The notes under the pieces are model-generated. The model saw nothing but the letters and a program-made list of their open reading frames with translations. It had not been told where the DNA came from and did no database searches. The translations under genes were made by a program, and so were the position numbers. Positions 14,402-19,750 of a stretch of 51,094 bases of DNA are shown piece after piece. Numbering within the stretch: the first letter of the stretch is position 1; every line of letters starts with the position of its first letter. The stretch is taken from NCBI GenBank assembly GCA_902552475.1, contig CACDJC010000007.1:1-51094 (forward strand), given 5' to 3'. The stretch comes from an uncultured Pelagibacteraceae bacterium (GTDB taxonomy: Bacteria; Pseudomonadota; Alphaproteobacteria; Pelagibacterales; Pelagibacteraceae).

Positions 14402-14521
14402 TAAGTAAATTAACTAAAATTATTCTCATTTTGTTCTAAATATTGGTTTATTAACTATGATTAAATTTTAAAGAAAATTTGTTTATTATATTAAAACTTT
14501 GCTGTTTAAAAATTTTGAAAA

Positions 14522-14877
14522 GCCAGATAAACTATAAGCCGGGTTCTGTCATTTAAACTTATCATTTATCTAGATCTTAAATCACTTTAAGATTCAAGCA
14601 ACTAACCCTGATGACTAGCCAAAGACTGCTTTTAGTTATTTCTAACAATGTCATCTCTACTCAGTCTTGCTCTCAGTGGGGTTTTCCATGCACTAGTTGT
14701 TACCAACTCAGCCGGTGTGCTCTTACCACACCTTTTCACCCTTGCCTTGATAAGGCGGTTTATTTTCTGTGGCACTGTCCCTAGGGTCTCCCCCGCCAGC
14801 TGTTAACTGGCACTGTGTCTTTGTAGAGCCCGGACTTTCCTCTTCAACTATTTGAAGCGATAAGTCATTTATCTGGC
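14522..14877 (-). ncRNA. rnpB: RNase P RNA (M1 RNA)
   Basis: Catalytic RNA of RNase P, which removes tRNA 5' leaders. The minus-strand transcript contains both universally conserved blocks: GAGGAAAGTCCGGGCTC (complement of 14826-14842) near the 5' end and ACAGAACCCGGCTTAT (complement of 14534-14549) near the 3' end, which form the P4 pseudoknot core. The ends are set by a perfect 10-bp P1 helix, GCCAGATAAA at the 5' end against TTTATCTGGC at the 3' end. The length, about 356 nt, is normal for a bacterial A-type RNA. It lies in the 586-bp gap between mraZ and the amidase gene; the roughly 120 bp between its 3' end and the dcw promoter hold nothing I can identify. Confidence 0.95.
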
Positions 14878-17705: not shown

Positions 17706-17782
17706 TGGTGGGCCCGCCAGGACTCGAACCTGGGACCAATACATTATGAGTGTACTGCTCTAACCAACTGAGCTACAGGCCC
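17706..17782 (-). tRNA. tRNA with CAT anticodon, probably tRNA-Ile2 (lysidine type)
   Basis: A 77-nt cloverleaf with encoded CCA: acceptor stem GGGCCTG, D-arm GCTC-AGTTGGTTA-GAGC, anticodon arm GTACA-CTCATAA-TGTAT, T-arm with a canonical TTCGAGT loop. The CAT anticodon could mean elongator Met or Ile2. Ile2, in which C34 is converted to lysidine by TilS, is favoured by C4-G69 and C5-G68 in the acceptor stem, the G27-T43 wobble at the base of the anticodon stem, and the variable-loop TGGTC, all shared with E. coli tRNA-Ile2. It lies 58 bp downstream of tRNA-Val, both after rpoD. Confidence 0.9.
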
Positions 17783-17840: not shown

Positions 17841-17915
17841 TGGTGGGCCGTGTTGGTTACGCTCCAACTACCCCTGCAATGTCAATGCAGTACTCTACTA
17901 TTGAGCTAACGGCCC
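17841..17915 (-). tRNA. tRNA-Val(GAC) with non-canonical D- and T-loops
   Basis: A 75-nt cloverleaf with encoded CCA. The acceptor stem GGGCCGT/ACGGCCC, anticodon stem CTGCA/TGCAG and T-stem GTTGG/CCAAC pair perfectly, and the D-stem GCTC/GAGT pairs with one G-U. The anticodon loop TTGACAT gives GAC, for valine codons GTC/GTT. The T-loop reads AGCGTAA instead of TTCRANY, and the 7-nt D-loop AATAGTA lacks the G18-G19 pair. The neighbouring CAT tRNA is canonical in both loops. The 5' end is only 2 nt after the rpoD stop codon, so it is almost certainly cut from the rpoD transcript by RNase P. Confidence 0.88.
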
Positions 17916-17917
17916 TT

Positions 17918-19750
17918 TTAACTTTCCAAGAAACTTTTTAATTGCTTAGATCTGCTTGGGTGTTTTAATTTTCTAAGTGCCTTCGCTTCGATTTGACGAA
18001 TTCTTTCTCTAGTTACAGAAAACTGTAGACCAACTTCTTCTAATGTGTGGTCTGTGTTCATTCCTACGCCAAACCTCATTCTTAAAACCCTTTCTTCTCT
18101 TGGAGTTAAAGTTGATAATATTTTTGTTGTTGCTTCGCTTAAATTTGATTTTATTGCTTGTTCTAAAGGTGCTAATGCTTTTGTATCTTCTATAAAATCA
18201 CCCAGACTGCTATCTTCCTCATCACCTACTGGTTTTTCTAAAGAAACAGGTTCTTTTGAAATTTTTAAAACTTTTCTAACTTTATCAAGTGGCATTCTAA
18301 GTTTTTTTGCCAACTCTTCAGGTGTGGCTTCTCTTCCAAATTCGCTTAAAATTAATCTTTGAGTTCTTACAATTTTATTAATCGTTTCAATCATATGAAC
18401 AGGTATCCTGATTGTTCTGGCTTGGTCGGCAATGGATCTAGTAATCGCTTGCCTTATCCACCAAGTTGCGTAAGTTGAAAATTTATATCCCCTTCTATAT
18501 TCAAATTTATCAACTGCTTTCATTAATCCAATATTACCTTCTTGAATTAAATCTAAAAACTGAAGTCCTCTATTAGTGTATTTTTTTGCAATTGAAATTA
18601 CCAATCTAAGATTTGCTTCTACCATTTCTTTTTTTGCAATTCTAGATTCCTTTTCTCCCTTTTGTATTCTGCTTACTAATAATTTAAATTCAGTTACAGA
18701 AATTCCAAGTTTATTGCTTATTTCAACTAGTCTATTTCTAATATTTTTAAATTCTTCTTTGTTTTTTTGAAAAAATTTTTTCCATATTTCATTTGTATCT
18801 AAAAAAAGTTTTAAATTTGGATTAATTTCGTTTCCTACATAAAATTTTATAAATTCTTCTCTTGGTATTTTATCATTTAAAGCAAGTCTTAATAAATTTC
18901 CCTCTAAAGAAATTATTTTTTTATTTTCAACATAATGTTTTTGAACAAGATCTTCTAAAACTGAAGGAGACAATTGAAGAGATTTTATATTTTCTAGAAT
19001 ATCATCTACTATTTTTTTATAGTTTTTTTCTTTTGATTGAGAAAATTGTTTTGAATTTAAAACACAATCTAGCTTTTCATTCTGATATTTTATTAATTTA
19101 TTATAATCTTTGGTTAAATTATGAACTGTTTGTAAAACTTTTGGCTTGATTTCTGTTTCCATTGCAGCAAGTGTAGGATTAAATTCATCATCGTCACCTG
19201 TATTGTTTTCTTCACTTTCATTTTCATTTTCACCATCTGATTTTTTTTGTTTGGCGCTTGGACCCGTGTCTTCATCTTCCATGTAATTAGTATCGATATC
19301 AATTATTTCTCTAACCAAAATTTCGTCATTCTGTAATTTTTTATTCCATTCAAAAAATTGTTGTGCAGTTATTGGGCTCTGAGAAAGTGCATTAAGCATC
19401 ACATCCTTTCCTGCCTCGATTCTTTTAGCTATTGCAATTTCACCTTCTCTAGAAAGAAGTTCCACTCCTCCCATTTCCCTCAAATACATTCTTATAGGAT
19501 CGTCACTTTTCTCTATTGTTTTACCTTCGTCTTTAGAACTTCCGTCCTTTTTTCTTAAAACTTTAAAATCTGCTTTTTTTTCAACCAAAATTATTTTTTC
19601 ATCAAGAATATGAATGAAAGCTTGTTCAAGATTTTCTGAAGATAAATTTCTTTTTCCTAAAGATTTATTTAATTCTTCATGAGTGATGAAGCCTCTATGG
19701 ACACCTCGGCCCATCAATCTTGCAAATGATTTTGTAATTATTCTTTCCAC
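17918..19750 (-). CDS. rpoD: RNA polymerase primary sigma factor RpoD (sigma70)
   Basis: Housekeeping sigma factor that directs RNA polymerase to -35/-10 promoters. The 610-residue protein has a region 1.1-like N-terminus, region 1.2 ([30 protein letters not shown]), a long acidic non-conserved insert near residues 160-190, then regions 2.1-2.4 ([59 protein letters not shown], quoted by key parts), region 3, and region 4.2 ([22 protein letters not shown] form). It follows dnaG by 64 bp and is followed within 2 bp by tRNA-Val. The yqeY-dnaG-rpoD order is the macromolecular synthesis operon type with rpsU replaced by yqeY. Confidence 0.97.

Follow-up and report, generated by a model that had tools for sequence, protein, structure and literature searches.

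The contact between G18 and Psi55 and the TPsiC loop are near-universal in tRNA and are the targets of TruB, TrmA/TrmFO and TrmH; eukaryotic tRNA-Ala of the A54/A58 type keeps G18/U55. D- and T-loops randomised in suppressor tRNAs were reportedly the subject of older structural work by the Steinberg group. According to the passages on the elbow in PMC4810234, residue 18 of the standard elbow intercalates into the T-loop and contacts Psi55, and the 19-56 pair forms the flat outer face that is recognised by RNase P and the L1 stalk. Type II mitochondrial tRNAs, as treated in part of PMC7609411, have likewise lost the G18-G19 and TPsiC motifs, and with them the D/T contact, whereas in the SAR11 tRNAs described here the contact positions are replaced and covary. 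tRNA-Pyl, which according to the corresponding part of the same review also lacks GG and TPsiC, has a short D-loop and a long anticodon stem, whereas the present tRNA has an ordinary cloverleaf and its elbow occurs in many isotypes. Eukaryotic tRNA-Ala (R15/A48, A54/A58; parts of PMC7566577) shares a non-standard 54-58 pair, a purine at 60 and A48, and differs in having A58 where the present gene combines A54 with U58. No description of the A18/G55 elbow type was found among the open-licence papers searched: it does not appear in the portions covered of the non-canonical tRNA review PMC7609411 and of the T-loop review PMC7912444, and none of the T-loop and D-loop terms looked for occurred in the text covered of the phage tRNA papers PMC10264068, PMC11555353 and PMC13015707.

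The DNA analysed here, hereafter the window, is a stretch of 51,094 nucleotides from an uncultured bacterium of the Pelagibacteraceae (SAR11), with a GC content of 27%. It contains a tRNA-Val(GAC) gene (Table 1) which, read from 17915 to 17841 on the (-) strand, has the sequence GGGCCGT TA GCTC AATAGTA GAGT A CTGCA TTGACAT TGCAG GGGTA GTTGG AGCGTAA CCAAC ACGGCCC A CCA. The gene resembles canonical bacterial tRNA-Val(GAC) (RF00005) in its cloverleaf, anticodon, A73, CCA, G19, C56, U8 and U33, and differs from it in having A18/G55 for G18/Psi55, A54/U58 for T54/A58 and A60 for Y60. All stem pairs are formed (21/21) in a cloverleaf of 7/4/5/5 bp with U8, U33 and CCA in place, and the RF00005 match (17844-17915) reaches 53.6 bits, above the gathering score of 29, compared with 72.7 bits for the adjacent canonical tRNA-Met (CAT). 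The canonical elongator elbow, G18-G19 with TTCRANY, is replaced by AATAGTA and AGCGTAA: position 18 is A instead of G, G19 and C56 are retained, and the remaining T-loop letters are A54, G55, G57, T58, A59 and A60. The sequence-only reading, made without database searches, had described the perfect stems, the encoded CCA and these loops base by base, and its account was right on each point. Both letters of the outer pair G19-C56 are present and would be expected to pair. Since positions 54 and 55 are A and G, formation of m5U54 or Psi55 is impossible. The tRNA begins 2 bases after the stop codon of the sigma factor gene, and rpoD was found in 160 of the 199 Val loci considered below. Elsewhere in the window, 14519-14876 (-) matches class A RNase P RNA over its full length, at 290 bits. 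A15/A48 is unusual too; it was rejected as part of the elbow switch, the canonical SAR11 orthologue L216 being likewise A15/A48. An origin of the T-loop by inversion was also rejected, the reverse complement of TTCGATC not being AGCGTAA.

Table 1. Coordinates of the rewired tRNA-Val(GAC) gene, its parts and its neighbours in the window.
Feature	Position	Strand	Basis or remark
tRNA-Val(GAC), rewired elbow	17841..17915	(-)	ARAGORN tRNA-Val(gac); Rfam RF00005; conservation
D-loop AATAGTA, positions 14-21	17896..17902	(-)	Constant or nearly so across versions
A18 replacing G18	17899..17899	(-)	Covaries with position 55
Anticodon GAC	17881..17883	(-)	ARAGORN and coordinates
T-arm GTTGG-AGCGTAA-CCAAC	17852..17868	(-)	Compensatory GATGG/CCATC and GTAGG/CCTAC in relatives
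T-loop AGCGTAA	17857..17863	(-)	A54 (17863), G55 (17862), C56, G57, U58 (17859), A59, A60
CCA end, encoded	17841..17843	(-)	Sequence
rpoD-like primary sigma factor ORF	17918..19750	(-)	Pfam Sigma70 regions; syntenic neighbour
Canonical CAT tRNA, next in line	17706..17782	(-)	ARAGORN, Rfam; internal control

We propose that the window gene is, with high probability, a working elongator tRNA-Val for GUU and GUC whose elbow is closed by alternative tertiary contacts. A18 would still insert into the T-loop and touch G55, A54/U58 would take over from the reverse-Hoogsteen U54/A58 in capping the T-stem, and the G19-C56 outer face seen by RNase P and by the L1 stalk of the ribosome would stay intact; as G19 and C56 are unchanged, recognition by both would persist. 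Such a tRNA could be processed and used normally without m5U54 or Psi55. This new elbow variant is real, very probably functional, and distributed far more widely than the window.

The Val(GAC) loops occur in two states. Among 202 candidate loci, 199 were parsed, leaving out a truncated copy (L092), a chance match (L096) and a decayed copy (L217). A18 goes with G55 at 180 of them and G18 with U55 at the other 19, without exception, and since most of these loci were retrieved through the rewired type, and possibly some genomes are included under two names, the frequencies of the two states are biased and the coupling is not. The suggestion, made from the single gene, that the loop changes were coordinated is thus borne out. 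There are 26 distinct Val(GAC) sequences, 14 with A18/G55 and 12 with G18/U55. In the sister family f2 the gene was found in 8 of 10 genomes searched, and all eight of those read are canonical; canonical orthologues with the same body at the same locus also exist inside the window's own genus. Between the canonical L216 and the window gene the only differences are at positions 18 (G in L216), 54, 55, 58, 59 and 60 and at one acceptor pair, and what separates the canonical L221 from the rewired L215 is the identical set of loop positions and one T-stem pair; L225 is intermediate, with A18/G55 and U54/A58 retained. Orthologues with ordinary loops had been named beforehand as a sign of error or decay, and they do occur in the same genus, but the changes are matched and the loops appear to behave as a two-state switch, not as decaying sequence.

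In an RpoD tree of 138 rows, without the non-rewired L221, L225 and L227, whose adjacent rpoD piece is short or missing, the 7 canonical rows require 6 changes, at least 4 of them forced by well supported branches; shuffled labels gave 6.9 changes, scarcely more. Because the canonical rows are scattered on this tree nearly like shuffled labels, the elbow switch arose repeatedly or was moved by recombination.

The same loops are carried by viral tRNAs. A scan of IMG/VR for AATAGTA ... AGCGTAA ... ACCA yielded 57 stretches, 53 of them distinct, with 49 strict cloverleafs and 14 anticodons; the mixed form of G18 with AGCGTAA was represented in the viral scan by one stretch, not a cloverleaf. TGCRANY loops (G55 with U54/A58) combined with A18 gave at least 120 stretches, and 54 distinct tRNAs pass in 119 newly numbered loci; combined with G18 they gave 87 stretches, and 1 tRNA passes among the 71 loci that were newly numbered and examined. 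The 90 TGCRANY tRNAs among the viral loci at that stage comprised 69 with AGNA, 4 with GG and 17 others. Canonical TTCRANY with A18 gave at least 120 stretches and a single passing tRNA in 120 loci examined. It had been predicted and recorded beforehand that loops with A54/U58 and U55 must go together with G18, and this held: ATCGTNA loops with G18 gave at least 120 stretches and 69 tRNAs in 116 loci examined, against 0 tRNAs with A18 (7 stretches). Since these loops took G18 and never A18, position 18 appears to track position 55 rather than 54/58. Named phages also provide examples, among them Acinetobacter phage Ac42, with AATAGTA/AGCGTAA in a tRNA annotated as plain tRNA-Met, where Acinetobacter phage 133 has AATTGGCA/TTCGAGT in its related tRNA-Met, and Campylobacter phage CP8, with an A18/G55 tRNA that carries no annotation in the displayed stretch of its record. 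Many TGCRANY/A18-G55 phage tRNAs (L420-L538) are initiator-like, with a CAT anticodon and a mismatched first pair, and viral contigs L732-L734 carry arrays of 10-17 tRNA genes, among which one was called as tRNA-Pyl(CTA) and another is a rewired Val(GAC). Further elbow types were seen among phage tRNAs (L242-L609, L732-L857), namely A19/U56 with TTT loops, G54/G58 (GGC.G loops) and G18/C55.

It is tempting to speculate that the rewired loops reached SAR11 from phage tRNA genes via recombination. Identical loops are common among phage tRNAs, SAR11 genomes hold truncated tRNA copies, and both states occur at scattered places across the RpoD tree, all of which would fit. We nevertheless consider such an origin unlikely: the tRNA body is native between the changed sites, a similar Val(GAC) on viral contigs (3 stretches) has a different body, neither the window tRNA nor a rewired Thr tRNA from f2 had a BLAST match in 50,697 phage records, and L225 resembles an intermediate step. 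Equally doubtful is the idea that rewired elbows are retained by phages, and perhaps by cells, as a way round host enzymes or toxins recognising the standard T-loop. Phage tRNAs are reported, in the portion of PMC10264068 that bears on this, to dodge tRNA nucleases by anticodon-loop changes, but the coexistence of several elbow types would suit neutral drift among equivalent solutions just as well.

Covariation in viral tRNAs bears on whether the elbow is closed at all. From 4.39 Mb of viral loci a cloverleaf scanner blind to T-loop sequence extracted 1498 distinct tRNAs, and two reversed controls gave 0 each; tRNAs matching the fetch patterns were dropped (1317 left), clustering at 80% identity left 988, and positions 18 and 19 were assigned by a rule that takes no account of the T-loop and favours a D-loop GG, AG or GA. 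The viral contigs were fetched by pattern, so that the following counts among the 988 are not population frequencies: for 18/55, G/U 849, A/G 92, G/C 24, G/G 15, A/U 7 and C/G 1; for 54/58, U/A 857, A/U 62, G/G 32, A/A 25, C/A 8 and others 4; and for 19/56, G/C 919, A/U 39 and others 30. Mutual information was 0.350 for 18-55, 0.451 for 54-58 and 0.264 for 19-56, with shuffle maxima of 0.013-0.016 (1000 shuffles each), and was at shuffle level for the cross pairs 18-56, 19-55 and 54-56. Weak associations link position 18 to 54 (0.094; shuffle maximum 0.013) and to 60 (0.093), as expected if both switches tend to co-occur; positions 54 and 60 change together, and tRNAs of the A18/G55 class retain G19 and C56. 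The 18/55 coupling is broken in the 15 G/G, 7 A/U and 1 C/G tRNAs.

Because 18-55, 19-56 and 54-58 covary, the elbow contacts would persist with other letters, in a geometry that we infer. An open or disordered elbow, in which the contact is simply lost as in type II mitochondrial tRNAs, had been hinted at in the sequence-only reading by a likeness to reduced mitochondrial elbows. The loss of both G18 and U54/U55 in an AT-rich genome would agree with it, but we regard it as very improbable, since an unused contact would not covary; SAR11 loops are moreover nearly invariant, G19-C56 is kept, and the comparison with type II mitochondrial tRNAs, which lack the D/T contact in the account given in part of PMC7609411, is not supported. 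The TPsiC/GG elbow is probably not the sole natural solution: tRNAs of phages and of SAR11, marine bacteria of great abundance, would use modular alternative elbows, with 18-55 as G-U, A-G or G-C, 54-58 as U-A, A-U, G-G or A-A, and 19-56 as G-C or A-U, in SAR11 (where TruB was not found) even in an essential tRNA.

That tRNA was identified in a SAR11 genome consisting of a single contig and 99% complete (G322). It has 34 matches to RF00005, of which 33 were read and the 34th lies below the family cut-off; the tRNAs read cover all 20 amino acids, the 19 besides His being served by other tRNAs. The sole tRNA-His found has the D-loop AATAGTA and the T-loop AGCGTAA, directly precedes the histidyl-tRNA synthetase gene (hisS), is missed by ARAGORN and scores 50.6 bits with RF00005. 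Because the sole tRNA-His found in this genome has the rewired elbow, rewired tRNAs almost certainly function in translation, as judged from gene content. The recurrence of the matched set in this tRNA-His and in many phage tRNAs suggests that the tRNA elbow can be closed in more than one way. The sole tRNA-Phe of G322 has A18/G55 with U54/A58, a type that was also read in several other SAR11 genomes; the SAR11 tRNA-Phe(GAA) genes of this type (L229, L234-L238, L661, L862, L863, L865, L866) have the loops AGTAGTA or AGGAGTA with TGCGANT. The full rewired elbow also occurs in Thr(GGT) of f2 (7 loci read) and of three genomes of f10, another alphaproteobacterial family, a rewired Thr tRNA scoring 50.9 bits with RF00005. 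The L617 Thr tRNA was unlisted in the RF00005 search, which is taken as a loss in the fast filter; the G595 tRNA at the corresponding place scores 49.4 bits. Canonical Thr(GGT) was not found in G037, but the tRNA list of this genome also lacks Asn, Cys and Pro, so that little weight can be given to the absence. Among 289 Alphaproteobacteria the exact motif pair is present in five genomes, namely the three of f10, G322 and the window's own.

Staphylococcal cell-wall tRNA-Gly is a specialised non-translational tRNA, and a comparable role in peptide or lipid aminoacylation, or in regulation, may be considered for the window gene. Another Val tRNA, with anticodon TAC, is also present, and its elbow is canonical. 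Five genomes of the window's genus g1 that had given no strong match were looked at again; in four of them (G245, G226, G165 and G474; 92-97% complete) no Val(GAC) was found, the matches, at E up to 1e-13, being to other tRNAs alone, so that the gene may be dispensable in some genomes of this genus. A specialised role is nonetheless very improbable, given that GTT and GTC, the codons read by GAC, make up 134 of the 224 Val codons counted in 12 ORFs of the window, and that the elbow is shared by the sole tRNA-His found in G322 and by many phage isotypes. The earlier ideas that GAC is little needed, or that the tRNA has a special role, fare poorly on the same evidence, the former with the reservation of the four genomes in which the gene was not found, the latter as a general rule. 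With a matched natural replacement in an apparently essential tRNA it can be tested directly which features the elbow requires and what purpose its modifications serve, and rewired elbows may be natural scaffolds for orthogonal tRNAs. Gene finding is affected as well, since ARAGORN overlooks many rewired tRNAs, including the tRNA-His of G322; with viral tRNAs in artificial flanks it missed 30 of 64 with A18/G55 and A54/U58, and 20 of 20 with A18/G55 and G54/G58.

Enzymes acting on U54 and U55 were searched for in SAR11. TruB_N (PF01509), detected in all 14 of 14 control genomes, exceeded the cut-off in 33 of 298 members of the order, i.e. in 11 genomes of genera g5, g6, g7 and g11 and in 22 of f2. 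None was over cut-off among the genomes searched of g1, g8 and g10, with three sub-threshold hits in g8 and g10 (E 0.016 to 0.24), nor was any found in the f2 genomes G046, G052 and G058, all with Val matches; a first search had likewise found TruB in 0 of 9 g1 genomes, seven of which are single contigs. TrmFO (TIGR00137) was over cut-off in 0 of 11 genomes (controls 7/14); the sub-cut-off matches were weaker, the strongest being ORFs of 624-640 aa that are likely MnmG. PF05958 (TrmA and relatives) was found in 0 of 17 genomes (controls 12/14). No enzyme recognisable as a maker of m5U54 was thus present in the genomes searched, and in those of Pelagibacter none for Psi55 either. The absence of these enzymes may have loosened the constraint on the elbow in SAR11; more tentatively, it could have removed selection for U54-U55 and allowed the rewired state to spread. 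The stronger statement that TruB loss caused the rewiring was rejected. Rewired tRNAs occur despite TruB in G487 (genus g7) and, as Thr(GGT), in f2 and f10, and TruB loss is therefore not required.

The window gene is a real, conserved gene under selection and not a sequence error. In a search of 61 genomes including its own it had 29 matches, of which 21 are identical (own included), 7 have 84-99% identity over 68-75 bases and 1 is partial. All 29 fall within the window's genus, 28 of whose 37 genomes searched carry the gene (own included), and none in the 24 genomes of f2. The T-loop is AGCGTAA in 28 of the 28 non-partial matches. Across 6 distinct versions, double-sided changes affect 10 of the 21 pairs and every cell is paired (126/126, 100%), a level of compensation reached in 0 of 500 shuffles; the T-loop is invariant and the D-loop differs at 1 base. 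The rare D-loop variants AATAGTTA, AATAGTG and AATAGAA each retain A18. A pattern scan of named genomes returned at least 120 stretches, and 79 of the 80 listed are titled Pelagibacteraceae or Pelagibacterales; the 80th, from Methanoregula (L096), was rejected as a chance match without a cloverleaf. The low Rfam score, the failure of ARAGORN in sister cases and a decayed rewired copy elsewhere notwithstanding, the chance that the window gene is itself a decayed copy or a sequencing error is negligible, because the identical 75-mer is found in 20 further genomes of the genus, from independent assemblies, and the stems change in a compensatory manner; cloverleafs of many isotypes and the tRNA-His of G322 share its elbow. 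Sequence error had already been judged a poor explanation from the single gene, rightly so. Decay, its other proposed undoing, does occur in one copy, in G577 of genus g8 (L217:1501-1575 (-)), which has acceptor and T-stem mismatches and C56 changed to T56 and which exists beside a canonical Val(GAC) (L233), but not in the conserved window gene. Truncated tRNA pieces were also noted in SAR11: L691 (G322:C1:838377-838454) is a Met(CAT) copy without its 3' end, L092:5210-5265 is the 3' half of a Val(GAC), and L047:1485-1532 consists of a 3' T-arm and acceptor portion containing AGCGTAA. L092 and L047, both of them 3' pieces, look like integration-site remnants.
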